Shown piece by piece: positions 3,201 to 64,000 of a DNA stretch of 64,000 nt; the stretch's first letter is position 1; each line of letters opens with the position of its first letter. The notes beneath the pieces were generated by a model. That model was not told the DNA's origin, did not search any database, and worked only from the letters and a program-made list of their open reading frames with translations. The DNA lies in NCBI RefSeq assembly GCF_003073045.1, contig NC_037595.1, positions 11,338,074-11,402,073 of the forward strand, in the 5' to 3' direction. The translations under genes were made by a program, and so were the position numbers. Origin of the DNA: Pomacea canaliculata (Eukaryota; Mollusca; Gastropoda; Architaenioglossa; Ampullariidae).

Positions 3201-6200
3201 GACTGCGCGCGGATATCGTTCTGTTTTCGTGTCTGTGTGTGTGGGATGAAGCCAATCCCTCTGGCTGTCCTGTCCCATCCATCTGATTGGGATGAGAAAC
3301 TAATGTCCGCTGGTCACGTGTGGAGCAAACTTTGTGGTCAGAAAATTAGCAGGACGTGTTACACTCTCAAGCTGGCTCCTTTTGTTCGTATACTCTAGCT
3401 AACACACACGCACGCACACACACGCCCAAGGCATTGAAGGGAGTGCACTCAGCCTCCCAGTCCACCTCCATCATCTGCGTCCCGCTAGTCTGGACAGCTG
3501 CCAATGACTAGGGATGCGTTCAGAAAACTGCTTTGTTCACGGCTTTAGTTTGCACTGGCCGTCCTTAGTTCGAGTCTGACTACTGTTCTCAAAAATGAGA
3601 GTTTTTTTTTTTTTTCTTTTTTTTTTTTTTTCTCGCTTTGCCGGATCATCAGGAAGAGTTCGTGGTGTAAGGAGGTTTCAGGTGAGAAAGCGAAAATAGC
3701 TGCAGGATGGGATGTTAGGTTTATCATTCCCGTCTTAACCTGCTTTACAACTCGCCCGCTCAAATCATCAGAAGGAAAAGCAATTGCATAAAAAAAGGGT
3801 TTATCATTGCATGGGATGCGGGTACCCATTGCAGGTAGGGATGGGATTGGGCGGTGGTAGAGAGAGAGAGCGTGTAAGGGGGTGGGATGACTGCAAATGT
3901 GTAAAAGCACGTGATGACCCCGTGTGCTAAAATCCAGCGATGAGTGTCGGCCTAATCGTTGCAAGTGCATCCGGAGGCACGTGCGTTGTGATGATAATTC
4001 TTACATTTTATTCCCGGGGAGTTTTTATTTGAATAGATTATTGACCTTGATTGTTGTTGTAAATGAGGTTAACGATCCGTTGGCGATGTGATTCATTCAG
4101 TTATCACCTAAACCTCCTCTTGTCTCTGTGGGTCTCACATCCAGCTTCACTGCTGTTACATCGCAGTCCGTTTGAGGTGCAGCTGGTTGTCTTTTCTGAT
4201 CACTAGATCATTCTCCATCTTTAGACTGTTTATCAGCACACACCCCAGCACGTACACGCAGAGAGAGAGAGAGCATGGGGAAGTATAAAAGGTAATGGCT
4301 GCTTATTAGAAGTGTTGAAAGTAATTGTCATTGAAATAAGGATCGTTTTTCTTCCCAGCTTTGAAATGTCAGTCGATGACTTCATATAAAGAATGTGTGA
4401 TCAAGTGTCGAGCGGTGGTGATTGCCAGCGAACTAGGTCACTGCAGTTGACATACCTGTCGATGAATGAGGTCAGGTCAGTCGCGTTGAGAGGTGTGGTC
4501 CATGCAGCCAAGGTAAAAAGTCAGCTTAGTCATAGTCTCAGCAGTCAAGGTATCTAACAGAAGTAGTCGTTGAACCTCAGCTCCGTGCAGCATCCCACCA
4601 TGGGTTGGTTTATGTGATCTGGTTACAGGATATCAGCTTCATCATCGGATTCATTTATGCTGGTGCACGTACACACACACATACAGGCTGGCAGCTAGTG
4701 GATGTGGTGCCGGCGGTTGTTGTCACGTTAGGAGGCATTAATTTGCCTAATGTCTAGTTTAGTATTAGACAACGGCGAAAATTAAGGTGCACTGTCATTC
4801 TTTCGCGCCTTCAACTGGAAATTACCGAAACAAATTCGAACCAACATGGCAGCAGCTTTGTACTCTTATCTACTGAGTGTCGTATATGGCATGTTGACTC
4901 AACAGCTGTTTCTTTGTATCAGTGGATCTTGTAACCTCTTTCAACCTTTGAAAGTGTCAGGTTTCCAGGTGCTGGGAACAGTTTTTGTTTGTAATTTTTT
5001 TTTTTTTTGACCGCAAATTTCGATTTATCTTCTTCTGCTATGAACTGTTTATCAGCGTTGATTTTCTTATGATACCTGTAGCAACTACTTAACTCCGTAG
5101 CCGTGCAAATATGGGCAAATTCTTGACCAAATATGGCCAAATGTTTGCATGACGGCTGTATAAGTTGTATAAAAGCTTTACCGAACTTGCTAAAACGCTC
5201 GTCCACGTTTATCCGGTTAAGAACGGAAACTGAACTGTTAAAAGGACAACTTTTGATAAGTGATACAAGGTTAGGTTTGGTGAAGAGTGGATGTTTTGAC
5301 CAAGGATGTGACTTGTCTTCGCTGCTTCGCATAATCAGTATTTTTATCTTTCTTCGTTCTCTCTTTCATTCACGTTATACTGGTGGAGATAGTGTACTAT
5401 TTAGACGTGTGTTTTCGCCTTAAGCATATTTTTCTCGTGGAATATTCGGGTGAGATGGACCACCCTTCATTGTCTGTTTGGACGAGTTAGCGCCTAGCAT
5501 CCTCCTGGTCTAATTGATGGCCAGCGGCGGTCAGCAAAATACTCACCCTGTCGTGGGCGATCGCCGGAAAGTGTCCACCTCCGGACTGGCAGGCAGAACT
5601 GTTAAACCATCTTGATGCCAGGCCAGTCTCCTAGATACCTTGTCTTGTTGTTCTGGTGGTAGGAACGTCTGTAATGGACTTTGCTTGTTTGTCGCAGCAG
5701 GAGGGGTCATTATGGCGAGCGTTTGCTAGTAAAGATGCTGTGCAGACGACATCGAGGCCTCTGCATCAGATCAGGTTCAGCTTGGGGATCGAGAGTATCT
5801 AGGACTTCTTTAACCTGGTCTGACTATTAACGATAATTCTGGCGATGTTCTACCTTTTCATGAAGTCCATTATGATGCTTAAAGTGAGTGTGGTGGGTAG
5901 GACTGCTTCCGTTGGCCTTGGGTTTCCTTACTTTCTTACTTCGTTACGTCCTCACACGTTTCTCAACGCCGGAGGTTCCGTTTTTGTAATGATGTTTGTT
6001 GACGAGATTCTTTGATGAGGCTGGCAGCAATAAACCTCTAAATGTATTTTCATCCATTCTTGCTGAGTACGTTAGCCTTGACATTTTAAACCACTTGTTG
6101 GGACAAACTTCTTCTAAGCAGTGCCAACATCATTAGGTAACAGGGCAAGATGTAGGTAACAGTTTGATTTCCTCTTTCGTTGAGATGTGAAGGTCATCAG

Positions 6201-15383: not shown

Positions 15384-18300
15384 CGCGCGAAGGAACGGAC
15401 ATACACAATCATGCACTGACTCATTAAAGTTCGTAGAATTCATGCAGCTTCGTCTTACCAGGGTCGCCTGCTCGTGAACTCTGACACAAGTGTCCTGTTG
15501 ACCAACCTGACGTCAGCTGACCTCGGGCTATACCGTGTAGAGGTCAAGCTACCTAATGAAACAACAGAGGAGTTCAGCGTGAGCCTTGTCATCGGAGGTG
15601 AGAGAAAAGATTTCATGGAAAGACAGAATGTCTGATGGAGAGATAAGGAAGGTGTATGGCTGACCGAGTCTTTTCCTGACCAGCTAGTCAATGACTATGT
15701 TACAAAGCAAATAAGAAACTAAGACATTGTTGACGTAAGTTGTCGTTATTTACAAGTTTACACATACTGAGTTTAAACAAGAAAGACACTTGCACCTCAA
15801 CTGAACAAATCCATTTATTATTACAGCGGTTGTATTAAAAAATATACAATGTCCACACAGTCTTTTGAACACGTGATGTCCATTTGTGTTTGTTTGTTCG
15901 TAATATAACAAATGTATCAAGTAAACATGTTTTTTCCTGTTCTCGTGACTCTCTTACCGGACTAAGAACGTTTCTCTGTCAAATATCGCTTGTCTCGTCC
16001 AGCAAAGAAAAGATGTGTAAACTTGTAAACCTGAAGTTTGCTTTGGTTTTGCAGAACCGCCGGAAACCATAGACGGCAAATTGTTTGTCTTTTCTGACTC
16101 GTCAGAAACGTCCTTCGTTAGTCTGAAATGTGGTACATTTACCTCTCTTGGCTACCCTCCGGTGTCAGTCGTATGGAGGGTGAGTGAAGGCCTTTTGTTC
16201 CAGGATGGTGTGAATGGTAGAAACCACCAAGGCTTTATTTGAGAAATTATAATGTGAGCAGGGGAGAGATATGTATGGGGAGAGAGAGAGAAACATCAAG
16301 GGGGAGAGAATAAAGTAAAGTAGTAGAGGCTTTATTTTGATTTGTGCTACTACTGAAAGTTTTGCTACATGCATTGCTTCTTGTAACGTTAACAAATATT
16401 TTTCAGTCCGTCCCTGTGATCCAGCCATCAATACAGTTAGGATTAGCTGTCCTGGGTTCAGAACCCATTACGGGTACTCTGTTATTTCTGAGCATGGGGC
16501 ACCTGTTTACATGGTTGGCTTCTTTTTCCCCTTGCCTCCACACCCTGTCAGGTTCAGTAACTGTAATAGTAATGCTCGACCTGAGAGAACGACTTAGCTA
16601 ATGACTCTTCCCAATATCACTGGCACGTCTTCTTTATTCTTCAAAAAAAAAAAAAGCATAACATTATTTTAGATATTGGCACTACAACATATTTTATTTT
16701 AATTCTCTAAGGGTTCCAGTCTATAATTTTGAGTTCTGTATAATTTTTTTTTTCAAACACCACAGATCTTCAAACATTGTGTTAGCATGGTCTGAGATTT
16801 CTATTCTGCTTGTGTCTAGTTTCTCGCTACTAATTCTCGTGCTAGACACTGTCGTCTGGTAGTTGGATGTTGTCAGCTATAAAAATGACAGCACACTGAC
16901 GTATTGCACATTCAAACAATTGAATACTATCATCACACTCATTCTGTCTTTCTCAGGATCCAACCAACAAGCCCTTTAACCTGATTGGTTTGTAACACAT
17001 CCTTTTGTTCCAGGATCCCTCGGGGCTACTGCTAGCCAGTACAGGATTCTCAGAACAGTTCTTTACATTGAAGTTACCTGTAAACATCGCTAAGTCTGGA
17101 AACTACTGTTGTCAGCTGGACTGCGGTGGACCCAACTATTGTTGCCTTGACGACAGGTCCCCTCTCAGGCAGTGCGCGCAGGTTGATGTACAAACCGGAG
17201 GAAATGACAAACAGGAAGCAAGGTATGCAACACCTTCCAATCTGACCAGCCTTGAACAGCGAGTCTCGGAGATGGACGTGATTCTGCGAGAATTGAATGT
17301 CACCAGCCTGTTACAACGAGTCTCGGAGGTGGACGTCCTGGTACGAGAATTGAGAAGTGAGAAGGTGGGTCAGGACTGTGGTCACAGCAGTGCGGCTGCC
17401 ATGGCTCATCTGGTTCATCGCCAAGCTAAGTGTGACCAGCTCGACAGTTTCATTGACCGAGTGGACGCCGCGGAAATGAAATTCGAAAAGGACTTTGAAG
17501 GTGTCGATAGGATCGTAAAATATATGCAAGATCAGCTAGACTCCATGAATCAGACAATGACAGACCTTCAAAAAGGCGTTGGACACGATTATTCCTTGGA
17601 CAATCATCAGTTAACAACTAACATGAGCGACCAGTTTGAAGATTACATCAGCAGAATGGATGTCATAGACAAGAAATTCAGTAGTTTAGATAAGACTCTT
17701 AATGACCACCGCCTACAGTGCAACGAGGAAACGATGAAAATAAAAACAACTTTACAGAATGAAGTCTCCAGACTGAAACTGATTGATGACAGAATATTGA
17801 AACTCGATGACCGCATGTCAAACGTGGATGACTGGATGTCGAAGTCATCAGACTATCAAAGTCAAATGACAAGAAACCTCACGACCATTGGTCAAGATGT
17901 AGTAGCTATCAAGATGGCCGCTGATCATGGAGTCTCGGCGACAAAGAGCAAAGTAACATCACTGGAGAAGGACCTGTATGCTTATATAAATCGTTGCAAT
18001 TCATCATGTTTGGACTTTAATGCTTTGAAAGGTGAGTAGAAGAAGGCACCTTACAAAAAATATTGCGATGAAATGGCCAAAGTATAGACAATAATAATTT
18101 TGCATTTGCAATTAGCTGCATGAAGGCAGGGTTAGTTAGACCTGTCATGTGCTGTTGATATTTTAATATTTATTACATAAAACTGATAACTGTTGTCTAG
18201 AACACTTACTGTCCTCTGATGCCTCGTGTTTTATGTCCAGGATGCCCACAAGAGAAGGGCTATCGTCTGTTTGGCAAGCGCTGCTTGAAGCTGTACACGC

Positions 18301-18979
18301 TCAAGAAAAGCTTCACTGAGGCGAAATTGCACTGTGAGGCCGATGGAGCCCATCTCGTCCACTTAAAGTCACGTGATATCGACCTCCCGCCATTTATTTC
18401 TCTCATGGCTGCAAATGGTACGCTAGTATGATAAAATGTCTTTGGTACGCAAATACATACAAGGCTCAGTACTCCAGTATCATTTCCCTTTTCCATGACT
18501 GTTCATAGAAGCAAATATATTGTCTGTCACTAATTCTTCCTGCTTTTTAATATGAAAGTACTTTTTCTAAAATACTGTGATCAATATTTTATTTATTATT
18601 ATTTTTTTTGTTAACCGCCATTTTCCTTCTAAGAAACTATATATATATACCGATAAGAACAGGAAAGATAAAATTTCACTTTTTCAGAAAGAATGTACAA
18701 TAATTCTATACTTCTGCAGGGCGACAGAAAAGTGGATCCTACTATGACGGTCTGTGGATTGGAGCGACTGACATTCTGACTGAGGGAAACTTTCAGTGGA
18801 GCGATGGAACCGAACTGTCGACTGACTCCGACCTCTGGGGCAATGGAGAGCCGAACGATAAGCATGACGACGAGGACTGCGTTCATGTTCTTTACTGGTC
18901 GTTTACCGTCTTGAATGATGCAAACTGCTCCAGTGAATACGACTTTGTTTGTCAGACAGACCTCCATTTCGCTACATAG
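14335..18979 (+). CDS. CREP-like secreted lectin: two Ig-like domains, coiled coil, C-type lectin domain
   Basis: Seven exons keep phase throughout: 14335-14371, 14863-15056, 15462-15597, 16055-16179, 17014-18031, 18241-18417 and 18720-18979 (TAG). The start encodes a signal peptide (MKLTWAVVTFIWG…). Exons 2-3 form the first Ig-like domain, ending in the DLGLYRVEV motif. Exons 4-5 form a second one, with LKCG, the core Trp in VVWR and SGNYCCQLDC. Most of exon 5 (about 17220-18020) is a heptad-rich interceding region that includes a 57-base tandem repeat. Exons 6-7 make a full C-type lectin domain: GYRLFGKRC, CEADGAHL, LWIGATD, WGNGEPND with EPN, DCVHV and the final FVCQ. EPN usually goes with Ca-dependent mannose-type sugar binding. 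The order signal, Ig, Ig, coiled coil, lectin is that of gastropod CREPs, haemolymph pathogen-binding lectins. A fibrinogen domain (FREP) is absent. Total about 660 residues. Function is inferred from architecture. Confidence 0.88.
15307..15379 (+). repeat. (AC)n microsatellite in a lectin-gene intron
   Basis: About 36 uninterrupted AC units inside intron 2 of the CREP-like gene, ~80 bases before the exon 3 acceptor. It ends in an acgcgcgcg tract. Confidence 0.97.
17248..17361 (+). repeat. 57-base tandem duplication in the lectin's coiled coil
   Basis: Two in-frame copies (17248-17304 and 17305-17361) encode the related 19-residue units SLEQRVSEMDVILRELNVT and SLLQRVSEVDVLVRELRSE. The heptad pattern continues across the junction, so the unit lengthens the stalk. 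The DNA copies keep words such as cgagtctcggag, which suggests a fairly recent duplication. Confidence 0.85.
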
Positions 18980-26968: not shown

Positions 26969-29900
26969 AATTAAAAAAAAGAAAAAAAGAAAAGGTGTCT
27001 GGATGTTCTTTAGATAAATCAAAGCCAAACAATTCAACTTCCATAACGTTCAGAGCTGAGTTCACGGACAGTTGAATACTGAATGGGAAAATAGCAACAA
27101 AAATAAATGTCTCCAGTTCCGTTGTTACGGGGCTTTATGCATAATTTATTTCTTCAGTTATTTAGCAGGACCACACTTCTAATTCAATTTTCAACACTTT
27201 ACTGCACATTTATTTTATTTATTTATTTTTTAGTTTGTTAATGATGGTGTGATTTCTCTTAGAAGCATTTTATTTCTGCTCAATAACCGAAAGCTGTGAT
27301 CAGATAAGTGGTCTGACCTGTGTCATATGCAGATTTCCGTGGTCATAGCCTTTGATAACGCAGTTTATTATTCAGTTTATCATTTCTGCAAAGGGATTGA
27401 TTGAGACTGAATGCGACTTTATTGTTTGCAACAAACTGCAGTTGTCGTGTATTGGCTTCTCCACTTACCCAGCGAATGGTGTCTGGAACTTTCCCTCTGC
27501 GCGGGGCTCTGCTGTGGAGGTTGAGGACGACCATGGAGGAGAGCAGGGCCAGAACGCTCCATAGCAACGACAGAGTGTAAGAAGAGACCTGGAGACAGCA
27601 CGAGGGAACATTTCGGAAATACAACTGTTTCAAGTAATGACCAATGCAATAAACCTATTAAAAAGCAAGAATAATAAGTGATCATACATATCTTCCTGAA
27701 TATTTATATAGACACAAATACATCAAAGTACGTATGTTTCAAACGTATATTTGTAAGATTTTCTCTTTTTAGGCAATAGTGTACCAACACCAGTTAGAGG
27801 CGTTTCCTGGCAACAAAACTCATCACTGACCTATGGCTGGAAGTTCAGCATGTGCGTTGGGCAGTACGTCCTGCAACTTGATGATGAGCAGCAACAACAG
27901 CGCCATCAGGATAGAACCTGCAGTGGGATGAGTCAAAGGTTAGTAACGGTCACACTTCATCAAAAATGTTCCTTTCGAACTCTACATAAGGCAAAGAAGC
28001 AGAGGGTCAAACAAGCAGATAAAAAATAGAAAGAAAGAAAGAAAATATGAAAATAAAGATAAAGATAACAAAGAATAGGAAATGATGGAGAGAACAAAGC
28101 ACCGAACAAAAATAAAGGAATTACAGAACAATTTCCAGGCAAAAGTTTAAATTTCATCAATTCGTGATAATTAATGTGTTGTAGGGAAGAGGTAGTCACT
28201 ACCTATCGGTTAAGTTCCAACCGGACATCACTGAAGGTTTGAGCAGGACTCACCCAGTGTGATACGCTCGGAGGAGTCTGGCGGAAGCAACATGTGGAAG
28301 GGCACCAGCAGACCAATCAGAAGTGCGGGAATGATGAACACGTGCACGTAAAACAGTGGATTTCGTCGCAGTGTCAGGGTTACGATGAAATCCGGGAAAC
28401 TCTCCAGACAGCAGGAGTAATATTTACTTCGGATTTCCGCTTCTCGCTTCACCACCGTCCATTCATTGTTCGTCTGAAGCAAGTACAAGTGGCTGGATGT
28501 GAATATTTTGTTGTTGTTGTTGTTGTTGTTGTTATTATTATTATTATTATTATTATTTAAACTATTAAAATAATAAACATTCCTGACATAAAATTAAAAT
28601 ACTGATAAGGCATAGTCAATAGGCTGGTCTAGAATAAACTCTAAAATAAACCTTTACCAGGAAAAACAAAGATATATATATATACTTAGCACCGTACATC
28701 ACCAAAGACGACGCTAAAATATCTTTACAAAAAAAAAAAGATTTAAAGTAGGTTAAAATAAACAAGATAATCAAAAGATAGTACCGACTACTATTCATTT
28801 CTTCCGAAGTATTATTACTACTGCTACTACCACCACCACACACTACGTCCACAAGAACGTCTTCAATAGGAAGACTGTGGATACCCCGTCAACCCCTGTT
28901 ACCTCCTGTTCAAACCGAGATGATAGTGGAATCAGACCCAGACTCCAGTGGCAGTCATGACTCAGAAAACATCAGAATGAAGTCCAGTGACAGAACAAGA
29001 CATCAGACGAGACATAAAGGTAGACAGCAGTCTTCTTAACTCGTCCGTCCTCAAGTCCTTCAGGGTACCTCGAATCGGAGTCACACGATCTCCAGGTTTT
29101 TAACCACGATGGGCATCTCGTTGAATCAGTGAATGTGTTTCGTTTAAGTAAATTTTTTTACAAAGTCAGGCGAGGTAACCCTTCTTGTGAAAATTTTCTC
29201 CAGCGACTACTCAAAGTCGCAATGTGATTGGTCATGACGTCACCATAGAAGGTAGGGCATCGAGGGTTAATTGACTGTTTAGATTTTATTTTCATGGTTG
29301 TCATTATTGCCAGTCATGTTCAAGAGAAGATAACTTTGTACACACTATTATTAAATATAAGTTATACATACTGTGAGGGCTGGAATGATGTGTAAGGGTT
29401 ACAACGATGCTTTGATCACAAATTGCAACACGCCGACTGTGACTCTCATTTTTTTAAAAGGCTTCATCGAGAAAAGCATCTGTTCTATCTCTATCATCCA
29501 AGACATTAATCTAGTCATCTTCCGACTGTTATTTACGTCTCTTACCGCCTCGGACTCGACCTTAAAAGCAGCTCCCGAGTTGTCTCCCCACAGGCTGAGG
29601 TTGAGCTGGTTGCCATGATGGGTCCAGCTGGCGAAGTAGAGGGCGCACTGCTGCTCGTCAAACGGAAATGTGTGCAGATCGACGCGACAGATCGTGCGCA
29701 GGCGCAGAGGTGCAAACCATATCACGTGACCGGAAGCGAACACCGACACGGTGGTGTCAGCCAAGTTCTTGTCTGTGTCCAAACTGCCGCCAAAACAGAG
29801 ATAAAACCGCAAATTATTCTCGAAAGAAAGTGACAAAACTGTGTACGACTGTCACGTGACTGTCTCCTAAACCTGTCACACGACTGTCACGTCAGGTTAG

Positions 29901-32900
29901 CGTAGCAAGCACTTCATGTGGAGTTGTCCTCCCGCAAGGGTAGTCAAGCTGCACGGGTAGAGCTCCCCCTAGACCTACCTGTTATATGGAACAATGTCCG
30001 GCTTCCACACTTTGCTGGAAGGCACTCTGACCTCCGTGACGTCAGCATACTGAGTGTAGTTCCACTCCAGGCGGAAGTCGTGCCACGACTGCATGATGAT
30101 GGCGTACGTCTCCAAGACCTCGTCCTCTTCATTCTGCAAGAAAAATGACTTTTTTGGAACGCGATAACTAAAATCAAAACGAGAATTTCTTAAAATTTAA
30201 ACGCAATTTAATGTTATAACGTTAATTACAGTCTTGTGAATATTTGTCAAGAAAACACCTAGGTGTCCGAAGAGTTCATGTATCGCCAACGCCTTTTCTC
30301 AACGGCGTGTTTGTCTTTCCCGTTATCCTTGTCATTCCACAGTCCCAGTCATAATTTTACCTATTTGCAGGTAGTTAGTGTTGACCAAATGTTGTATATT
30401 ATAAAAGTCATCCACAAACAAAAAAGTTTTGAAGACCTTGACATACAATTTTGTCAAACTTGGGCAAACGTTCAACGACCTCACTCCAGGTTCAACACTC
30501 GGCAACACCTGGCATCGAACACCACGTCATAGGAATAGCAGGACATAGCAAAAACAATCATTAGCATTAGCAGTAGCATGGAAAACAATAGCTTACCAGC
30601 TCTAGGATGTTGAGAAGATCCAAACCCACGGACACTTGGATCGCCTCCGTGTGGTTGTAGTACGGTCGAACATTCATGTCATAATTCTGGAAAAGACTCT
30701 TGAGTAAACTTTGCTCAGCATCCAGAGTTGCGTACTCGGTTGTGTTCCACGCATTTCCTTCTGCAACCAGAATAAACCCTCAGCTTTGAGCTAGAAACTA
30801 TAATGAAAACAAAGAGTGGAACAAAGCAAAAAATAAGTTGTTACTTATTACATGAATAAAGAGTGAATGAATGAATGAGAGGAAGTTACAAAGACAAAAC
30901 TAACGGGTGCCTGCAGTTTGTCCACAGCAGTCGTGGTTGTGAGAAGATGAAGGAGGAATCAAAAATGGTCTTTCAAAGCATAAGAAAGAAAATGGAAGAA
31001 ATCTGAATTGGTCTCAAGAGAAAGGGATTTCACAGAACTCTTTGATGAGCAACCCTAGAGATAACTTATAAAGATCTTACAGAACTGGAAGCTCAGAGAA
31101 AAAAGTAAGAGAATAACAAGATTAGCTGAAAGAACCTAAAGAATTTCAGAATGTAAGCTAATGGCAAAGGGATTTTATCTACATGATGAGGCTTTGGTAG
31201 TTTTTAAATCACAGAATCCGAACAGAACTCAAAGGTTGCAGAAGCTGCTTCAGTTTACAAGGTCAGGGTACGATTACTTTTTTTTCTTTAATCAGGAATT
31301 ACATTTGCCTAACTTTTAACATTTTCTTATGTAAAATAGATGTAGCACATTCTTGATGCCTTATAACCCAGGATTCTCTCGTTTTAAAGTACCTGACAAT
31401 GTCGCAGTGACGCCTGTCAGTACATTTACAGTTTGTATCTCAGTTCAGACTTTACAAGTATTTCATTATTTTATTTCATTGAAATTATAAATGGTACCAA
31501 AGTGCAGCAAACTATCTCCACCTTTAAGTCTTGCTACAATCCACCAAAATCAGATTGTAATGAGAGAAAGGTCATCGACCAGTTTGCTTTCATTGCACTA
31601 ACCACGACTTCTAATACCGCTAATTTCGCAGTTCATTTATTAAAATATTTAAAATAAACTATTAACACCATAATCACATTATGCTTTTCTTTTGTAGTTT
31701 TTTTTTCGCTCCAGTAGTAATTACCTCAACATCATGATAATCAGTAGGAGGTATCGATATCTAGTATTTCACTAATATTAGTCTTCTGATGATTTCCTGA
31801 AATGTATCCTCTTGTCTGCAACTATGGCCGCATAATGCCAGGGGGTCAAGGCAACAACAACATTCAAAACATGGTAAAAGCTACTGGGAAACATTATTTG
31901 CAATTAATGGTGTCGAAATTTGAAGGTATAACAACAAAACAACATGAGAAAAAAAAGAAGAAATAAAAGAAGATGAAGAAGAAAATCACAAGAATATTAA
32001 GAAGTACAAGAAGACAAAAAATGGCGATCTTTCTCTCTCTGTTTTCGTTGATAGCCAAGACAAAGGATGGTTTTTGTTCTTTGAGTAATGGGGGAGAGCA
32101 CTGTGCAGGGCTCAGGTGACGTAACTCCAGCACAGCAGCCTTAATGTCCAGACCAGCAGACTTGGGATTCCAAGGTCTGGAAAGTCCAGGGACAAAAACT
32201 GTGGTGACGACCCTGAACGTGATCCGCCGGCTGATGGGGAGACACGGCGTCTAACAGGTTTTCCCAGGCTCAGCCACGTCCTGCTCTTCCTGACCTCCTT
32301 GTGGAAATGAAGACAGACAGACGAGGTTTTATGTCTGACCAGACGGTTTCCTATACCTCTGGGCGTCGATCTCGTCTTCTCATTTAATTAGTGCTACCTT
32401 GATCAGGCATCTCTTAACTAGTTTCTCGACAAGGTCAAAGTGCACAAAGCAAGACGTTCTCGTTGTCGGTGAACTACGACTTCAGTTACATTGTTTCCTC
32501 GGAAAAAATTCCGAGTAAAACTAGAAAATGTTGTGTCAACTAATTAAGTTTTCCTGTTACTGCACGCGATCATTTTTTTTTCCTTTTTCTTTCTTTTCAT
32601 TTTAGACAGGAAAATGGTAAAAAAATAGGGTGGTGGAAGGATGTGTGTTTTTAATTTTTTTCTAAAGTGTGTACTCACGATCGAGAGAAAGAGTTTGTTT
32701 ACTTGCTTGCACGTGAAGGGGTGTACAATGGCAGAAGGTGACGAAAGAAATGGAAAGGTGACAGGGATAACAAAAACGAATGACGATAGAGGAAACAGTG
32801 AGCATGAAAATAGATAAAATTGTTCATACACATATATACTTTCACTTATTTGTTTCACAATACTTATCTTTATTTAATTATAAAATGTTTTTCATTACCG

Positions 32901-47236: not shown

Positions 47237-48726
47237 ATTTAGAGGATGTATTCTGGTTGTTAAGAAACAAATAAACTTTAAAAAGAACAAGCAGAAACTT
47301 TCACTCATTCATGTCATTTTGCAAAAGAAATAAAAGTTCACTTTAAAAAAATAATAATACTTGAAAAATTATCTGTAAAGGTGAAAAGATGGGATACATA
47401 TCTGAGAGTTGACTTGGACCAGTTTATCAGCATGTTACATTTAAAAAACATTATGGCCAGTCTTGATTAAAGTAATAAAAAAAAATCGCCGTCTGTAAAA
47501 CGCATTTTGATTTGAGCTGTACGCTGATACAAAAATCCGTTCATTGTTAAAATATTTTATTTAACTTTGGATAATACTATCCTGACTTTTTAGCTTTATC
47601 TGCGCGATGCATGTATCGCGACAGTCAGGGTTTTAAATGACCACGATTACAAGATAACTTGCTACCAAAGGGAGACAACACCATTTTGCTACGGATTTGC
47701 TTGATGGAGTTACTGTTCTTGACCGTTCGCTGTGCCTACTCTGAATTGTACGACAGTAAACTCCAGTAACTCTTCCTACAAAGATCATTACAAACAGAAT
47801 AGTTTTTTTTTTCTTGAGAGATTTTTCATTAAGAAAACTTATGCAGCAACAAAAGAAAACTTCAGAACTAACATTAGTAAATACGGTAGAGATGATGATG
47901 AGGAGGAAGAAGAGGAGGAGCGCAGTTGTAGAGGTGAACCAAATGCACTGTACTCGCAAGGAGACTTTCGTTATTTTATATTAATCTTAATCATCTTAAT
48001 TATCTCTCTGTTTAGAAAAGTGTTTATCTTCATTGTCACGCTAAAGAGGGTAGATGGTATCAGCACAATTGATAAAAGATATACTTTACACCCCACGCGG
48101 CAATGCCAAATCTGATCGCCAGCCAGGTATGTGCAGACATTGATAAAATATTTGCTGCTAAACTTTCTCAATGAATATCCAAAGTATTCTTCATTAATCT
48201 GATTAATGTGACTGCAATTGTCTGGACCACATGAAAACCACAAGTTGAGAAACGATCAATCATTAAAATATGTTCACGTTAACTGACAACTAGAGATAAA
48301 ACACAAAAGCAGACGAGAAGATGAAAACTGAAGATTTACTTTAAAATCAGTTAAAAGACCCTAATTTTTTTCATGTCTGAAGGAAAGTACCTCAGTAAAT
48401 GGGATCCGAACTGATACATCAAGCAAAAGCAAAAGTGAAAGTACAGTCTTCTTTAGGGATAGAGAAAAGGAAACTTATCATCAGGAGCACGTTGCTGACT
48501 GTGTTTACATCTTATGTTATTTCACGACAGGCAGATAAAAATTACTATCAAAAACAAATCACTGCGCATGTCCAAATTATCCGCCCCTTTTCGACTTATT
48601 TCCCGCACATATGATTACACTTTAGTCTCTTTTAGCGAAGGGAGCTAGTCGGACGTAGTTCTTGCTGAAAAAATCATATTTGACACCAAAATATTACCAC
48701 ATCACAACCGAGATTTCAAATACAAG

Positions 48727-48751
48727 ATGGCGACTGGGCGATATCAAACTC
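48727..48751 (+). pseudogene. 25-base stub of a RING-gene first exon
   Basis: atggcgactgggcgatatca and the next five bases match the start of copy C (62970 on), with the same leader upstream. After actc the sequence switches to the flank of copy A (tatctgccctcacc, as at 54734). The RING, B-box and all later parts are absent. It is the scar of a lost fourth copy. Confidence 0.8.
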
Positions 48752-49450: not shown

Positions 49451-51480
49451 ATGGCGGCTGGACGACATTACAAGCGGGGCTCCGATTTGCGTTTGTCCTG
49501 CAGTCTGTGCATGGAGTCCTATCGTGGTCGCACCCCCAAGCTGCTGCCATGTTTTCACACCTTCTGTCTGCCGTGTCTCGAGAACATCGTCGTCACCGCA
49601 ACGTCCAAGAAATCGGCTTCACACGCAGACGACAGTCCAGTCAAAGACAAGAAGAAAACGTGTGAAGAGAACAAGCAGACCATAGAAGTTACTGAGAAGG
49701 AAACAAATCCTGGACAAAAGAAAGAAGACAAAAATGATGATAGTACCGAGGAGGAAGAAGACAAGGAAGTGATATTTCAGTGTCCTACATGCCGTGTCTC
49801 TATACCTGTCCCCGCAGGTGGAGTGAGTCAGTTTCAGGTGAGTCACACGTTCTACCTTGTCCGTATACTTCATTCAGTTTCTCACAAGTATTATCCTGCT
49901 ATACTCTAGCAATAAATCGTATAAAGGTGATAACAAGTATTATTGTGAGATTCTGCAGCTAAGAACTGATCGAAGGACATCAACAAAGTTTCCAGAATCT
50001 TCCCCTTATACTATTTGTATCAAAAACCTGATAACATTTAACAAAACCTCTACCAAGTCTTGTTGCTTTACTTATTCTCATTCTCCCAGCCACTTTCTTT
50101 TCTCTTCCTCGTTCTTAATTATTTCCTTTCATTGTTTTTTGGCTTTAAGGGGATTCTGTCTTTTAAAAAAAAATGTGTTTAGTCATTTTATTGTAGAAAT
50201 GTACAAAACCATTTCAAATAAAAAAATTAACACGAAATAAATAGAAAAACTGTACTTTTTATACTGTTGTACAATACCCACATTTGTTTGAACCCTGCGG
50301 TGAGGAAAACAAAACAAGAAGTAAATGGGTTGTGTTTTTAAGTGTGAAGCAGCCTTAAGTCTGTCTGAGAGAGCAGGTAGACCAAGTGTACATCTCACCT
50401 ATTTCAGACCAATTTCTACGTGGACTGTGAAGATGAACCTGAAGCCAGTCTAGACCTACCTGTGGAGTGTGACACGTGTGAGGACGGCAGCCGCGAGACA
50501 GCGACACACGAGTGCGGAGACTGTCGTCACAAGATGTGCTCCCGATGCAGTCGTCTGCACGTGATCCATGCGCAAGGTCATCACGTGCGACCTCTCGAGG
50601 CCGGAGCTGCTGGCAAGGCCACCTCCAGAGTTGTAAAGACAAGAGAGTGCCCGAGTCACGCTGGCCAATCGCTGTGCTTCCACTGTCGTCAGTGTGACGT
50701 CAGCGTCTGCCTGCACTGTAAGCTGACGTCACACGAAGGTCACACTACGGAAGATTTTATGGCGGCTGTCACACGAGCCAAAGGAGAGGTAAACAGACTT
50801 ATGGTGACTGCAAACCAGCAGGTGAGTCTGTTCAATAAAAGCTTTTAGATAATCTTATTAACATTATCTGACTATTCTAATCTGACCTCTAGACGAGGAA
50901 AATATTTGAATGTCTCTCTCGTATCTAGATCCAAGTGCTGGAGGCTGTACTGGGTCGTCTGGAGCGTGACACGCTAGAGTTATCCCGCCAGAAGCAGGAA
51001 ATGTTGTCAAACGTGACGTCACGATACGAAGCATTGATGACGTGGGCGACCCGAGCACGTGACGAGGCGCTGGAGGAGATGGAGTGCGTGCAGCGTGCAG
51101 CACTGAAGGAGATGGAGGCCGAGCGGATTGTGGCGCGTGACACCAAACAGCTGCTGTCTCGCCTCGTGACGCGTGCGGCCTCTTCCTGTCACACCGACGC
51201 CGACGCCGACATCGTGCTGCACAAATCGGAGCTGCAGGCGGCGCTGCTGGACGACGACGCTCTCACCCGATACCGTCAACGGGGGAACAAGGAGGGTCAC
51301 GTGACCTTCTTTAGGTGCAGGTCAGATGACAAAGCCGTGCAGCTAGACCAGGTGAGAGACTTCGTGGGCAGACAGGAAGGACAGGACCAGGACAAGCAGG
51401 ACAAGATGGTGATGATGTCAATGAGAGAACTCTCAGAAAAAGCCGTGTCGATGACCAAGTCAATGGAGGATTTGGAATGA
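49451..51480 (+). CDS. TRIM-like RING/B-box/coiled-coil protein, copy A (C1q lost from the frame)
   Basis: Exons 49451-49837, 50408-50821 and 50929-51480, all phase 0, give 451 residues. Exon 1 has a C3HC4 RING: CSLC, CFHTFCLPC and CPTC, with an unusually long 68-residue Glu/Lys-rich insert before the last Cys pair. Exon 2 has B-box 1 (CDTCEDGS…HECGDCRHKMCSRCSRLH) and B-box 2 (CPSHAGQSLCFHC…CLHCKLTSHEGH). Exon 3 is coiled coil (LEAVLGRLERDTLELSRQKQ). RING plus B-boxes plus coiled coil is the TRIM architecture, whose members are mostly ubiquitin E3 ligases, many in innate immunity. There is no signal peptide. Relative to copy B, one base is missing a few codons before the last splice site, so translation stops at TGA 51478-51480 ahead of the C1q exon. 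A donor (atag|gtatgt, exon end 51498) remains, so the C1q exon may be spliced on as 3' UTR. Confidence 0.85.
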
Positions 51481-52181
51481 ACATGACTAGAATGATAGGT
51501 ATGTAGAAGGAATATTGTTGTGTGCGACATAGGTCTAAAGTTTGAAATGAAATAACTTAGGTCTTGTACTTAAATTAGTATTTTCAGTAATTTTTATATA
51601 TTTTCAAACTGACTTTGATATCTTAGAGAGCTGTAGCAATGACTAAGGAACTGAATGATTTGAAGATAAACATGATCGCGATGCTTTAAATGACCAAGTC
51701 CTTACAAGAGAGACAAATGGCACATAACAAATCCTTATCTATGAGGGTAACAGAATAAGCAAAATTTATTCTTCTTTACATCTAGTCATCGATCTTAGAA
51801 AAAATACTTTATTACTACAAAGACACTACAATAAAAAAGAAAAAAAAATACTCGTGTAGTACTTTAAAATTGGACGAATACAATGCCTCAATGTTATGGC
51901 CATTTACATTGTAACTTAAGACGAATAATGTATAGCCATAGTCTCGATCGGTGATCTCGACGTCTTCTTAAAGTGACTCACTCCCAGTGGACCAATGATA
52001 CTTCGTGATGCTGTTGTTGCTGTTAATAATATTACAACTAGCTGTAAAGTACCTTATACGCACTATAAACTATACACGCACAACACAACTCATTCCATCA
52101 CGCAAACACACATGAATTTCTTACGGATGTAATATTTTCCACTAACTCGTTTTATCACATTTCACTGTTGTCTTCTAACAG
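51481..52181 (+). other. copy A last intron with degenerate repeats of the exon 3 tail
   Basis: Segments at about 51626-51688 and 51686-51712 resemble the end of exon 3: the codons for AVSMTKSMEDL recur as AVAMTKELNDLKINM and again as a shorter MTKSLQE. The first begins right after an acceptor-like atcttag. They look like local duplications of the exon end, or a spare last coiled-coil exon. Confidence 0.5.
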
Positions 52182-52588
52182 AGAATGCGATAAGGTCGGT
52201 GTCATTCAGAGTACGGCGAAGTTCGAACCTGACTGTGACGACAGGAAATACTGTGATATTCGATATGGTCGACTACAACGAAGGTGGAGGCTATGACACA
52301 GCCACTGGTGTCTTCACGGCCCCCGTCACTGGAACTTACATCTTTGTAGCCAACTTGTATTCCACGTACTATGCGACTGGCTATAGCTACATCTCTCTCT
52401 CCATAGACAGTAAGATTATGAATTATATGAACGTTTCAAACAGCGTTGGCATGCTCCACGATATTGTCAGCCTTAAGACCGGCCAGAAAGTGTCATTAGT
52501 ACCAAACACGCAGTTCACATTATTGAATAATGAGTTATACACATTTTACACTGGTGCTCTGCTGTGCGCCAACCCAGGCATTGAATGA
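52182..52588 (+). CDS. C1q-domain exon of copy A, cut off from its reading frame
   Basis: Acceptor tcttctaacag is followed by a 407-base exon with a complete open C1q domain and TGA at 52586. Visible C1q features are VSFRVR, VIFDMVDYNEGGGYD, TGVFTAPVTGTYIF, YISLSIDSK, GQKVSLV and the closing TFYTGALL. It has the same phase (1) and length as the C1q exon of copy B. C1q heads are jelly-roll trimers that bind varied ligands; molluscs have hundreds of C1q genes used in immunity. The domain itself is undamaged, but the upstream exon reaches it out of frame. It may be recently orphaned, or used through a splice I cannot see. Confidence 0.75.
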
Positions 52589-55375: not shown

Positions 55376-55383
55376 TATATAAG
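55376..55383 (+). promoter_or_regulatory. TATA box of copy B
   Basis: tatataag, 47 bases before the copy B ATG and in the same context (taccatatataaggacaggc) as copy A. Confidence 0.5.
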
Positions 55384-55422: not shown

Positions 55423-58400
55423 ATGGCGACTGGACGACATTACAAGCGGGGCTCCGATTTGCGTTTGTCCTGCAGTCTGTGCATGGAGTCCTATCGTGGT
55501 CGCACTCCCAAGCTGCTGCCATGTTTTCACACCTTCTGTCTGCCGTGTCTGGAGAACATCGTCGTCACCGCAACGTCCAAGAAATCGGCTTCACACGCAG
55601 ACGACAGTCCGGTGAAAGACACGAAGAAAACGTGCGAAGAGAACAAGCAAAACATAGAGGTTACTGAGAAGGAAACGAATCCTGAAGAAAAGAAAGAAGA
55701 CAAAATTGATGACAGTACCGAGGAGGAAGAAGACAAGGAAGTGATATTTCAGTGTCCTACATGCCGTGTCTCTATACCTGTCCCCGCAGGTGGAGTGAGT
55801 CAGTTTCAGGTGAGTCACACGAAGATCTAGTTTGTCCTTTTATGTGCTTCCTTCAGTTTCTCCCAAGTGGTATCCTGCTATAAGTTAGCAATAAATCGTA
55901 TGAAGTGGTAACCAAGTATTATTCTGAGATTCTGCAGCAAAGAATTGATCAAAGTTTATCCACAAAGTTTCCAGAATCTTGCCCTTATACTTGTTGTGGC
56001 AAAAACCTGATAACATTTAATCGAACCTCTACCAAGTCTTGTTACTTTATTTATTCTATCCTCTCAGACAATTCCCCCCCCCCCCCACCTCTCTCTTTCT
56101 TTCTCTTAAATATTTCATTTTATTTGTGCTCGCCTTAAGGAGTTTGTGTTTTAAAAAAGGTGTTTTTGTTATTTTATTGTAGAAACTTACAAAACAATTC
56201 CAAAATACAAAATAGGACGAAATAACATATAAAATTGTACTTTTTTCCCCTTTTCTACAATACCCACGTTTGTTAGAACCCTGCGGTGAGGGAAAAAAAA
56301 AAAAACAACCCAAGTAAATGCGTTGTGTTTCTAAGTGTGAAGCAGCCTTAAGTCTGTCTGAGTGAGTAATATCTGGAGGGCATAACTTTTTTTAAAGCTT
56401 CTGTTCAACAAGGCAACACGCATAGAAGATAACGAGGAACAAATTTGTACTCTTGTCAAATGACCAGAAACAACAGAGAAAAATATCCTTACTAAATTTG
56501 AATACTACATGTATTAGAGGAACTACACTTATACCCTAAAAGGATCACTACAAAACTCATAAAGCTTTCGTCTTCCTACTTTTACATTGTTTTTCAGTCA
56601 ATCTTTCATTTTTGTAGGATCTTAAAGATTAATCATATTCATCATTTATTTTGTATTAACAACAATTTAAATGATTAAACGTATTTGTTTATTTGCTTTC
56701 CAGAAAAACAGTTTCAAGCGTAAAGTGTTAACATCAAACCAACGATAACTTTGACCTGTACTTGTAATCATGTATATCAATATTGCTACAGCATTTTACA
56801 CTCGTGGATACTCCTTTCCCTGACAAATGCTTTTATATTTTTATTAATACCTTTTTCAGTCCATACATTGATCAGGTTTCAGATCAGTTAAAAATTAAAT
56901 AAATATGTGCAGACAAAGGTAAGCCACTTAAAACAATATCATGACGAACAAATCTTCCATCTCATGTGTTTGGTCACACTTTATAGATTGGAATATAATT
57001 TATATTTTGTGACACGATTTACGTTGTAACCTAGCGATACAACACGATAGCAACATTTCGCTGAAACAAATAAATAGGACATCTAGAGAGCAAGTAGATC
57101 AAGGGTACATCTCACCTATTTCAGACCAATTTCTACGTGGACTGTGATGATGAACCTGACGCCAGTCTAGACCTACCTGTAGAGTGTGACACGTGTGAGG
57201 ACGGCAGCCGCGAGACAGCGACACACGAGTGCGGAGACTGTCGTCACAGGATGTGCTCCCGATGCAGTCGTATGCACCCCATCCATGCGCAAGGTCACCG
57301 CGTGCGACCTCTCGATGCCGGAGCTGTTGGCAAGGCCACCTCCAAAGTCGTGAAGACAAGAGAGTGCCCGAGTCACGCTGGCCAATCGCTGTGTTTCCAC
57401 TGTCGTCAGTGTGACGTCAGCGTCTGCCTGCACTGTAAGCTGACGTCACATGAAGGTCACACTACGGAAGATTTTATGGCGGCTGTCACGCGAGCGAAAG
57501 GAGAGGTGAACAGACTTATCGTGACTGCAAACCAGCAGGTCAGTCTGTTCAATAAAAGCTTTAGATAATCTTAACATTATCTGATTATGCTAATCTGACC
57601 TCTAGAAGTGGGAACTATTTGAATGTCTTTCTTGTGTCAAGATCCAAGTGCTGGAGAATGTACTGGGTCGTCTGGAGCGTGACACGCTAGAGTTATCCCG
57701 ACAGAAACAGGAAATGACGTCAAACGTGACTTCCAAATACGAAGCGTTGATGACGTGGGCGACCCGTGCTTGTGACGAGGCTCTGGAGGAGATGGAGTGT
57801 GTGCAGCGTGCAGCACTGACGGAGATGGAGGCGGAGCGGATTGTGGCGCGTGACACCAAGCAGCTGCTGTCTCGACTCGTGACACGTGCGGCCTCTTCCT
57901 GTCACACCGACGCCGACGCCGACATCGTCCTGCACAAATCGGAGCTACAGGCGGCGCTGCTGGACGACGACGCTCTCACCCGGTACCGTCAGCGGGGAAA
58001 CAAGGAGGGTCACGTGACCTTTTTCACCTACAGGTCTGATGACAAAGCCGTGCAGCTTGACCAGGTACGAGACTTCATGGGCAGACAGGAAGGACAGGAC
58101 CAGGACAAGCAGGACAAGATGGCGGTGATGTCAATGAGAGAACTCTCAGAGAACGCATTGACAACGATCCAGTCACTTGAGGATCTAAGGATGAACATGA
58201 GGACCATGACACGTAAGAGGAACAAATGTTGAAGTCAAGCTATTTCTTAGATTATTTGATAGGCAGTCTGTGATCATGATATCATTAAGGAAAAAGTAAA
58301 AGTAGGGTTGACCGAAATCTTCTACAATGATTTTAATGTATTGACCTACTACACCGTAAATCATAGAACTGAGCTCATCACAATATTTTTTATATCCACT

Positions 58401-59136
58401 AGTGTAAAAGATGAATTATCTACTAAGTATTGTGTAGTCTATTTGTCAATCTGGCTGTCATCAATGTTTGTGTTTCAAACCTCTGTCTTTGTACACAGGC
58501 TTGTACATCGAGAATTTGGTGGTGGTCACCAGAATTTTGAGCAAAATCATCTTGATTAAAGCTCTTTCCAATTGTTAGTTTATTATATATTGTAATATAA
58601 TAAATGCCTGTATTAGCTATATACACACACAAGCAAACGCACAAACACGCTTGAAGTTTTAACTAATAAAAAACATATATTACCCATCAGCAAAAAAAAA
58701 GTATTTTATGTCTTTTTTTCTCCTGACAGAAAATGCAACAAGACTGGTTTCATTTAGGGTACGTCTGAGTACACCTCTTAATGTGACGGCAGGTAATCCT
58801 TTTATATTCGATGTGGTCGACTACAACGAAGGTGGAGGCTATGATACAGCCACTGGTGTCTTCACGGCCCCCGTCACTGGAACTTACATCTTCATGGCCA
58901 ACTTGTATGACCAGACATATGGGAGTGGCTATGGCTACATCTCTCTCTCCATTGACAGTAAGAATATCAATTTTATGAACATTTCAAACTGCGTTGGTAT
59001 GATCCACGATATTGTCAGCCTTAAGACCGGCCAGAAAGTGTCTTTAGTACCAGACTCGCAGTTCACATTATACAGCAACGACTTATACACATTTTACTCT
59101 GGTGCTCTTCTGCGTGCCAACCCAAGCGCTGAATGA
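55423..59136 (+). CDS. RING/B-box/coiled-coil/C1q fusion protein, copy B
   Basis: Exons 55423-55809, 57125-57538, 57642-58212 and 58730-59136 join in phase (0, 0, 1) to give about 592 residues. Residues 1-129 hold a C3HC4 RING (CSLC, CFHTFCLPC, CPTC) with a 68-residue charged insert. Residues 130-267 hold two B-boxes, and 268-457 a coiled coil (VLGRLERDTLELSRQKQ; EALEEMECVQRAAL) with an acidic, Gln/Asp/Lys-rich end (GRQEGQDQDKQDKM). Residues ~458-592 are a C1q domain (VSFRVR, IFDVVDYNEGGGYD, TGVFTAPVTGTYIF, TFYSGALL). TRIM proteins usually end in B30.2, NHL or similar; C1q as the output domain is unusual. There is no signal peptide, so a cytosolic sensor or ligase is more likely than a secreted C1q protein (inference). 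An ATG upstream in the same frame (55273) is not used in my model, because it lies ahead of the TATA box. Confidence 0.87.
56366..57085 (+). other. ~720-base segment present in copy B intron 1, absent from copy A
   Basis: Copy A passes directly from ttaagtctgtctgag to agagcaggtagaccaag; copy B has AT-rich DNA between the same words. I see no target duplication, inverted ends or ORF, so it may be unique intron sequence lost from copy A rather than an insertion. Confidence 0.6.
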
Positions 59137-61332: not shown

Positions 61333-62994
61333 GAGTGTGACCCGATGTCCAACGTGTCTAGAATGTGACGTAGTATGCGAAGAACGTGATGTGTGTGTGT
61401 GAGAGAGAAAGAGACCTGATTGTGACGTGTAGCGAAGATCTTGCCTGTGGAAAGGTTTTCTGGGTAATCCTCATTTCCTACTTGTCTTCGTGCAAACGCA
61501 CAATCATAGACATCATTTAGAGGATATATTCTGGTTGTTAAGAAACAAATAAACTTAAAAAAAATACAAGCAGGAACTTTCACTCACCATGTTATTTTGT
61601 AAAAGAAAAGTTTACTTTAAAAAACAACCATAATACTAGATTATACACATACATTACAAAAAATATCTGTAAATGTGAAAAGGAGGGATACATATCTGTG
61701 ATTGGACTTAGACCAGTTTATCAGCATGTAACATTTTAAAAAATCAGTCTTGACGGAGTAATTTTAAAAAATCGCCGTCTCCAAAACGTATTTTTCTTTG
61801 AGCTGTACGCTGATACCAAGATCCGCTCATTCTTAAAATGTTTTAATTAAGCTTGGATAATACTATCCCGATTTTTTAGCTTTTACTTGCGCGATGAATG
61901 TATCGCGACAGTCAGCGTTTTAAATGACCATGATTACAAGATAACTTGCTACCAAAAGGGAGACAACACCTTTTTGCTACGGATTAGCTTGATGGAGTTA
62001 CTGTTCTTGACCGTTCACTGTGCCTGCTTTGAGTTGTATGACAGTAAACTCCGGTAGCACTTGCTACAAAGAGGATTATAATCAGAATAGTTTTTTGAGA
62101 TATTTGTCATTGAGAAAACTTATGCAGCAACAAACTAAAACTTCAGAACTAGCAGCAGTAAATACAGTAGAGATGATGATGATTGATGATGATGAGGAGG
62201 AGACTTTCGTTATTTTGAATTAATCTTAATTATCTGAAAAGTGTTAATCGTCATTGTCACGCTAAAGTGGGTATATATGGTATCAGCACAATTGATAAAA
62301 GATATACTTTACACCTCACGCGGCAATGCGAAATCTAATCTATATCCAGGTATGTGCAGCCATTGATAAAATATTTGCTGCCAAACGTTCTCACTGAATA
62401 TTCCGAAGTATTCTTTATCACTCTGATTAATGTGACTGCGATAGTCTGGACCATATGAAAACCACAAGTTGAGAAACCACAAATCACTAAACTATGTTCA
62501 CCTTAAGGGACAATTAGAGATAAAACACAAAAGCAGACGACAAGATAAAATCTGAAGACTTACTTTTAAAATCAATTAAAGACCCAAGGTTTTTTATGTC
62601 TGGTACCTCAGTAATGGGATCTGAACTGATACATCAAGCAAAAGCAAAAGTGAAAGTACAGTCTTCTTTAGGAGTAGAGAAAAGGAAACTTATCATCAGG
62701 AGCACGTTGCTGACTGTATTATACAATTATCAATCAAAAAGTATCAATGAAACTGTAACCTTCACGACAGGCAGATAAAAATTACTATCAAAAACAAATC
62801 ACTGCGCATGTCCAAATTATCCGCCCCTTTTCGACCTATTTCCCGCACATATCATCACACTTTAGTCTTTTTTAGCGAAGGGAGCTAGTCGGACGTAGTT
62901 TTTGCCGCAAAAATCATATTTGACACCAAAATATAATTACCACATCACAACCGAGATTTTAAAGACAAGATGGCGACTGGGCGATATCAAACTC
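61333..62994 (+). repeat. duplicated block X, copy 2 (upstream of gene copy C)
   Basis: Matches 46848-48751 but lacks the hAT-like MITE; the undisrupted target atttagag is at 61515-61522. It contains the copy C leader (agctagtcggacgtagtt … cacaaccgagattt) and runs straight into exon 1. A short ORF of about 36 codons (MGSELIHQAKAKVKVQSSLG…) is shared by both copies (48399 and 62614). Confidence 0.85.
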
Positions 62995-64000
62995 CAGACT
63001 CCAGTGAGGTGCGTTTGTCCTGCAGTCTGTGCATGGAGTCCTATCGTGGTCGCACCCCCAAGCTGCTGCCATGTTTTCACACCTTCTGTCTGCCGTGTCT
63101 GGAAACCATGGCTGCTGCAGCAGCTTCCACAAAATCGTTCTCAGACGAAACAAACGCAGATGAAGACAAGAAGAGTGGAGAAGATGCCGTCATAGATGAG
63201 GAACAAAGCAAAACAAAGACCTTCCTGTGTCCGACGTGCCGTGCCTCCGTTGTTGTGCCTGAGGGTGGAGTAAGTCAGTTACAGGTGAGTCACTAACGGA
63301 AAAAAGAACACAAAGGCCTGGGCTAGCGTTGTCATGATTGCATATTCATTTGTTAATACTTACAGGTTCTGTCAGACTGATTCTTACCTTCAGCCCACTT
63401 TCTCAAGGTTAAAAATTTCTTCAGGTGAGTTGGCATGAGACAATTTAAGATGAGACCGTTCTAGGTGAATCAGATCCATGGCAGTCAACAAAATGCAGTG
63501 CCCTGATTATTTGAAACAATGTTGTCCTAAAGCAAATTCTAAAATAAGGTTTTGTTTTTAAAGAATAAAGAATAAAAGGGATGTAGATAAATGATCACAT
63601 AGGCAAGAAAACAATGTTGATTTATTGTAGGGTTCTGCTTAAAGAATTCATACCCTGTCACTATAAAAACATTTTTTATTGATGATTTATGTACATTTAA
63701 GCGCGTAATTAATACTTAATAAAGAAAAAAAGGAGTGTAATCTTTAATCGATATAAAAGAACTTTGTTCATCACAAAGATAAACAACTAGATTGCTAAGT
63801 TTGGATATCTTTCAGACCAACTTCTACGTGGACTTTAATGACTCGTCAGATGTGACTCTACCTGTGGAGTGTGACACGTGTGAGGACGGCAGCCGCGAGA
63901 CAGCGACACACGAGTGCGGAGACTGTCGTCACAAGATGTGCTCCCGATGCAGTCGTCTGCACGCCATGTTTGCTAAGGGTCATCGCGTGCGACCCCTGGA
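62970..64000 (+). CDS. TRIM-like RING/B-box protein, copy C (runs off the window)
   Basis: Exon 1 is 62970-63284 (105 residues); exon 2 starts at 63816 and continues past 64000. The RING is intact (CSLC, CFHTFCLPC, CPTC), but the insert before the last Cys pair is only 43 residues and unrelated in sequence to copies A and B, with a run of alanines. Exon 2 begins TNFYVDFNDSSDVTLPVECD, and B-box 1 (CDTCEDGS…CSRCSRLH) is nearly identical to A and B. The upstream region is block X, not the block Y promoter, so this copy may be regulated differently. Whether it ends in a C1q domain cannot be seen here. Confidence 0.85.

Follow-up and report, generated by a model that had tools for sequence, protein, structure and literature searches.

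Recognition by TRIM proteins in vertebrates is carried largely by B30.2 and related heads, and in TRIM2 and TRIM3 the C terminus is formed by filamin and NHL domains. The RING, B-box and coiled-coil (RBCC) order of TRIM2, TRIM3 and TRIM56 is also predicted for the gene described here, which we call copy B, and these three proteins are the best solved-structure matches to its RBCC part. Copy B differs from TRIM2 and TRIM3 in that it ends in a C1q domain instead of filamin and NHL and in that its RING finger carries a 68-residue insert. It lies, with the related copies A and C, in a window of 64,000 nucleotides from Pomacea canaliculata (contig NC_037595.1, forward strand), which is the whole stretch of DNA that was analyzed and to which all coordinates refer.

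On the C1q side, the excerpts of PMC6835236 give 476 C1q genes for the Eastern oyster, sorted into secreted head-only, collagen-tailed (none found), coiled-coil-tailed, multi-C1q and other forms; 79 are classed as "other/uncertain," some of them perhaps cytosolic or membrane bound, and 16 are SUEL/C1q genes. In the secreted bivalve sC1q-like type II proteins, a C1q head comes after a coiled coil (PMC6835236, same excerpts), an order also predicted for copy B. Copy B is set apart from them by a RING and B-box region in front and by the absence of any signal peptide that we could find. Caprin-2 is not known to have a RING or B-box. It matches copy B weakly and shares with it a C-terminal C1q domain. 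According to the extracts of PMC11480233, the C1q domain of Caprin-2 forms a trimer, its family was first identified as cytoplasmic and mutations disrupting the C1q trimer lower its activity in LRP5/6 phosphorylation. Fusions of a C1q head to another module are found in mollusks in the oyster SUEL/C1q proteins and in the gastropod QREPs (immunoglobulin-C1q), as described in the portion of PMC6835236 cited above; there the partner is a binding domain, whereas in copy B it is a ligase module.

Like copy B, the invertebrate C1q proteins of the class named cghC1q are without a signal peptide, for which the available sections of PMC10672478 offer intracellular location or prediction error as reasons. 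The class is described in those sections as globular-head proteins, and their text does not contain "TRIM," "B-box" or "RING" as whole words (PMC10672478). Since cellular C1q proteins without a signal peptide are already listed (PMC10672478, same sections), intracellular C1q is not new in itself. A survey of Aplysia reports 22 genes for TRIM proteins and 11 for C1q proteins, with no joint architecture named among the 12 passages covered, of 14 (PMC9334734). A preliminary description of the present locus had called it a good candidate for an undescribed class, and "undescribed" is consistent with our search of the open-access literature (subscription journals and annotated sequence databases being outside its scope), where no TRIM-C1q protein was among the matches listed and none appeared in the accessible parts of PMC10744619, PMC4346834, PMC8382680 and PMC5549309. 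The architecture may stand, without a name, in annotated databases or in subscription papers.

Gene model and domain content of copy B

Copy B (RBCC-C1q) occupies positions 55423-59136 on the forward strand, and its gene model has four exons. Pfam placed a RING finger in exon 1 (55423-55809), which also holds the start codon, a B-box region in exon 2 (57125-57538) and a C1q domain in exon 4 (58730-59136), which ends with the stop codon; exon 3 (57642-58212), which ends in phase 1, was assigned as the putative coiled-coil region. All three introns are GT-AG, with phases 0, 0 and 1, and the resulting open frame encodes 592 residues. A TATA-like box stands at 55376-55381 (forward strand), at a distance of 47 nt from the ATG downstream of it.

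We scored the exons both singly and as a joined protein. Exon 1 reached 30.0 bits with the RING family PF13445 (cut-off, 25.2) and was also above the cut-offs of PF13639 and PF00097; on the joined protein, PF13445 (26.7) and PF00097 stayed above the cut-off, and PF13639 fell below it. The insert in this RING lies between CLPC and CPTC, before the last cysteine pair, and includes 21 D/E and 11 K/R residues. Exon 4 reached 40.2 bits with PF00386 (C1q; cut-off, 23.7) over profile positions 2-126 of 127, and the joined protein still scored 36.0 bits, above the cut-off, over positions 2-106. For the B-box family PF00643, exon 2 alone scored 37.7 bits against a cut-off of 24.1, but the joined 592 residues scored 23.9, just under it. 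The claim of a full TRIM module with a C1q head in copy B thus stood for RING, B-box and C1q when taken exon by exon, and it fell just short for the B-box on the joined protein. The best PF00643 stretch was at residues 78-115 of exon 2, with a weaker B-box-like match, below the cut-off, at residues 21-53, and a solved TRIM28 chain aligned to residues 17-121 of the same exon (2.4e-05). Exon 3 gave no match when searched alone, in Pfam included, and NCBIfam, a bacterial and archaeal library, matched none of the four exons. GC3 was 0.69 in exon 3 and 0.49 in the C1q exon, a difference that counts against the four-exon reading.

Among the solved structures, the top match to the RBCC part was TRIM3 (5e-13), followed by TRIM2 and TRIM56, and 12 of the 13 matches listed were to TRIM2, TRIM3, TRIM32, TRIM56 or TIF1-beta (which we take to be TRIM28), with a plant protein as the remaining one. 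The TRIM3 match spanned the B-box and continued into exon 3 (copy B residues 208-338). In exon 3, a heptad scan run without a control had hydrophobic residues at 6 of 8 a/d positions of the best register in 5 of 12 windows. The 13 matches listed for the C1q part included C1q, EMILIN-1, adiponectin, Caprin-2, collagens X and VIII, CTRP5 and a cerebellin-1 fusion; they covered mostly its first half, and the one to Caprin-2 was weak. AlphaFold2, run on the C1q head with two input sequences, returned an unusable model (mean pLDDT, 33.1).

Proposed joining of the coiled-coil exon to the C1q exon

Next, we looked into the junction on which the fusion depends. Intron 3 of copy B (58213-58729, forward strand) contains AATAAA/ATTAAA hexamers at 58555, 58599 and 58665. 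On splice-site scores based on textbook frequencies, the acceptor of the C1q exon, which starts mid-codon, ranked in the top 0.1% among AGs in the window, and the donor (CAC/GTAAGA) was middling, in the top 3.4% among GTs. Six GTs in or just after exon 3 scored above 0; those in phase 1 were the one used, at 58213 (2.34), and one at 57886 (0.72), and a GT stronger than 58213 lies upstream at 58065, in phase 0 and mismatched to the C1q acceptor. If left unspliced, the frame runs six codons beyond the donor to a stop at 58230-58232. The preliminary description had stressed that every splice phase matches, and phases 0, 0 and 1 do keep the frame open, but since a match at one junction is expected by chance one time in three, it is modest evidence for the join, and we rejected it as strong proof.

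We also evaluated whether the protein or its C1q part might be secreted. No signal peptide was found in frame before the copy B RING, and the stretch from the upstream stop at 55270 to the ATG holds no other methionine, which bears out the earlier statement that copy B lacks a signal peptide; the in-frame stretches preceding the ATG of copies A and C are likewise without another methionine. The alternative that had been named as refuting the fusion, in which C1q would be encoded by a gene apart that has a start and signal peptide to itself, was unsupported in copy B, where none of the three ATG frames of at least 12 residues in intron 3 had a hydrophobic start on our script's measure. Ten ORFs chosen from the gaps between the copies and from intron 3 contained no Pfam domain at cut-off, and two of them had matches below it, to a DUF (E value = 0.043) and to AROS (E value = 0.0071).

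Copy A, copy C and the structure of the array

Copy A (49451-52588, forward strand) has the same exon order as copy B, with a RING exon (49451-49837), a B-box exon (50408-50821), a coiled-coil exon (50929-51498) and a C1q exon (52182-52588), and a TATA-like box stands 40 nt before its ATG. Its intron 1 is shorter than that of copy B by about 0.7 kb, corresponding to an unaligned stretch of copy B (56366-57085) between two aligned blocks. Exon 3 is one base shorter than its counterpart, and a TGA at 51478-51480 closes the frame, leaving 18 nt before the donor at 51499. The C1q exon is fully open, over 134 codons, and scored 46.4 bits with PF00386, compared with 40.2 bits in copy B; an acceptor AG stands before 52182 and a second AG before 52184. 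The closure is either recent, or an assembly error or polymorphism, or else copy A is spliced differently. Use of the phase-0 donor at 51352, a strong one, with the AG before 52184 would join RBCC to C1q in frame while skipping the closed tail, but as the first AG is normally preferred as acceptor, we count this join only as a possibility.

Intron 3 of copy A contains one poly(A)-signal-like hexamer and, by translation and a shuffle test, a decayed duplicate of the exon 3 tail (51627-51689, forward strand), whose score was reached by 1 of 1,000 two-base-block shuffles when compared with copy A's own tail and by 3 of 1,000 when compared with copy B's. In the stretch 51627-51758, this coiled-coil tail duplicate is followed by another similar-looking short frame. 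This arrangement suggests that the linker ahead of C1q used to be longer or is prone to repeats. Further along the same intron, at 52008-52112, lies a frame of 35 residues whose start is strongly hydrophobic (MLLLLLIILQLAV). Among the six ATG frames of the intron it was the only one with such a start, but no donor passing our script's filter offered the phase that the C1q exon needs.

Copy C is represented by its RING exon (62970-63284, forward strand), with a shorter insert of 43 residues, and by an exon 2 that is cut by the window end (63816-64000, forward strand); no TATA-like box was found in the 200 nt before copy C. The 5' flank of copy A (48400-48751) is 88% identical to 62615-62994, that is, to the flank of copy C and the first 25 nt of its exon 1, and beyond this part it directly continues into sequence common with the flank of copy B. 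We propose that this is either the scar of unequal recombination or a truncated further copy. In copies A and B, the C1q exon follows the coiled-coil exon at 0.5-0.7 kb on the same strand. The idea of a tandem family is weaker than that of the fusion itself: copy A retains an open C1q exon at the corresponding position, but its frame closes ahead of the donor, and copy C runs into the end of the window. An open fusion is thus seen in this window only in copy B.

Divergence between copies A and B

We compared substitution rates between copies A and B for the RBCC part and the C1q head. The RBCC part was constrained (dN = 0.037, dS = 0.184, dN/dS = 0.20), and in the C1q head the values were higher (dN = 0.141, dS = 0.288, dN/dS = 0.49), corresponding to 3.8 times the dN and 1.6 times the dS of the RBCC part. 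The split between nonsynonymous and synonymous changes differed between the two, at 38:50 for RBCC and 40:22 for C1q (Fisher test on rounded counts, P value = 0.013). In the head, 32 of 134 residues were changed, and one run of 26 was unchanged (shuffling, P value = 0.012). We rejected the dN/dS of 0.49 as proof of diversifying selection, given that it is below 1, comes from one pair and could be explained by relaxed constraint on copy A. With A and B as the one pair, faster adaptive change in the head cannot be told apart from such relaxation. The unchanged run and the higher Pfam score of copy A argue against simple decay.

Synonymous divergence was uneven along the gene. Exons 1 and 2 gave a dS of 0.12, against 0.68 for the 20 codons that end exon 3 and 1.24 for the 20 that open C1q. 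Codons 19-44 within exon 3 were also high, at 0.63, and elsewhere in exon 3 and C1q the value went down to 0.08, all of these windows holding few changes. Identity between the copies was 81% in the first part of intron 1 and 89% in intron 2, and for intron 3, blastn gave no alignment, while the exons flanking it do align. The unaligned intron 3 and the high dS at the adjoining exon ends point to an RBCC-C1q order that probably has a greater age than one would judge from how similar exons 1 and 2 are, but because dS is uneven elsewhere too, this argument about age is soft. In the simplest reading, gene conversion would have kept parts of the copies alike, and the zone around intron 3 would show that they are older; in that case the order of RBCC and C1q would date back at least that far.

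Interpretation and competing explanations

At the level of sequence the feature is real, and the open fusion is read from copy B. The best reading is that copy B encodes a putative cytosolic RBCC-C1q protein, an E3-like recognition protein of the TRIM kind. We give a probability of roughly 60% to copy B being a real four-exon gene whose product is a cytosolic TRIM-type protein with a C-terminal C1q recognition head, a judgment made from the DNA. RING clustering has been proposed to switch on ubiquitin transfer in TRIM5 and TRIM21. In copy B, the RING would recruit a ubiquitin-loaded E2, the coiled coil would pair the chains, and the C1q head, perhaps trimeric as in Caprin-2, would bind a repeated ligand, so that clustering on the ligand would, by analogy, bring the RINGs together and switch on ubiquitin transfer. 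This ligand would be a glycan or protein, of microbial or damaged-self origin, that is met in the cytosol. In a wider proposal, cytosolic TRIM ligases of this kind would form a tandem family specific to the lineage, would use C1q heads with fast-changing positions as recognition domains where many vertebrate TRIMs have B30.2, and would mark their targets with ubiquitin, an intracellular use of a complement-type lectin head. This wider proposal is a tentative one, and we lean against it in its full form; the innate sensor/effector role put forward in the preliminary description is likewise a proposal. A C1q head on a TRIM would mean that in another lineage the same ligase chassis acquired a recognition head of a different, lectin-like type, and it would bring into the cytosol, as a ubiquitin-linked sensor, a domain met chiefly in secreted proteins of the complement-like sort. 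This opens a clear test, namely, what the C1q head binds and whether binding triggers ubiquitination.

The RBCC exons might instead encode a TRIM-only protein to which C1q is rarely or never joined, with copy B transcripts ending in intron 3 and copy A encoding RBCC only. In its favor are the closure of copy A at 51478-51480, the poly(A)-signal-like hexamers (three in intron 3 of copy B, one in that of copy A) and the middling donor before the copy B C1q exon. Such hexamers are, however, expected often in AT-rich introns as a general matter, the acceptor of the copy B C1q exon is among the strongest in the window, and both C1q exons are fully open, with copy A's scoring above copy B's in Pfam. 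In a simple simulation that allowed for substitutions and nothing else, an exon evolving neutrally stayed open with a chance of 0.127 at 0.155 changes per site, so that the open exons are suggestive only, and we consider a TRIM-only protein unlikely. Less probable still is that the C1q exon is part of a separate secreted C1q gene after each TRIM copy. Most Eastern oyster C1q genes are in secreted classes, according to the excerpts of PMC6835236, and the hydrophobic start at 52008-52112 in copy A would suit such a gene. Yet that start has no filter-passing donor in the needed phase, copy B has nothing like it among its three candidate starts, and the C1q exon begins mid-codon behind a strong acceptor.

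A more serious rival accepts the RBCC-C1q protein as real and makes it a house-keeping scaffold without a defense role, like Caprin-2 in Wnt signaling or like TRIM2 and TRIM3, which have a role in neurons. It is serious because the RBCC part is closest to TRIM2 and TRIM3 among solved structures, with TRIM3 and TRIM2 as its top matches, and an immune role was shown by none of our analyses. Tandem copies and a head that changes faster than the rest are more usual for recognition genes, and copy B has both: the C1q head has changed faster than the RBCC part, which fits a sensor/effector role and speaks against a scaffold. This counterargument is weakened by the fact that relaxed constraint on copy A's C1q could also have produced this ratio. 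The part of Caprin-2 in LRP5/6 phosphorylation is served by its C1q trimer, probably by way of aggregation (PMC11480233, in the extracts), which also suits a scaffold. We hold a scaffold to be rather doubtful, less so than a TRIM-only protein.

Other collections and neighboring features

We searched viral contigs with the pair of C1q sequences and found two loci, L001 and L002. L001 has a C1q-like stretch at 4839-5420 that is 32% identical to that of copy B in the best segment, and the ORFs of this locus, read by eye, would be phage tail-type proteins, one of them with the C1q-like match. The B-box pair found no match in the viral contigs or in prokaryote genome contigs, collections that are not meant for animal genomes.

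Elsewhere in the window, the reverse strand at 29399-29851 encodes a neurotransmitter-gated ion channel ligand-binding domain (PF02931, 63.1 bits), and the frame beside it (29944-30189, reverse strand) had no Pfam match. At 16996-18979, a 347-residue open stretch that looks coiled-coil-like by eye is followed further on by a C-type lectin domain (PF00059, 54.6 bits, 18704-18979), and this is possibly another lectin gene in the window.
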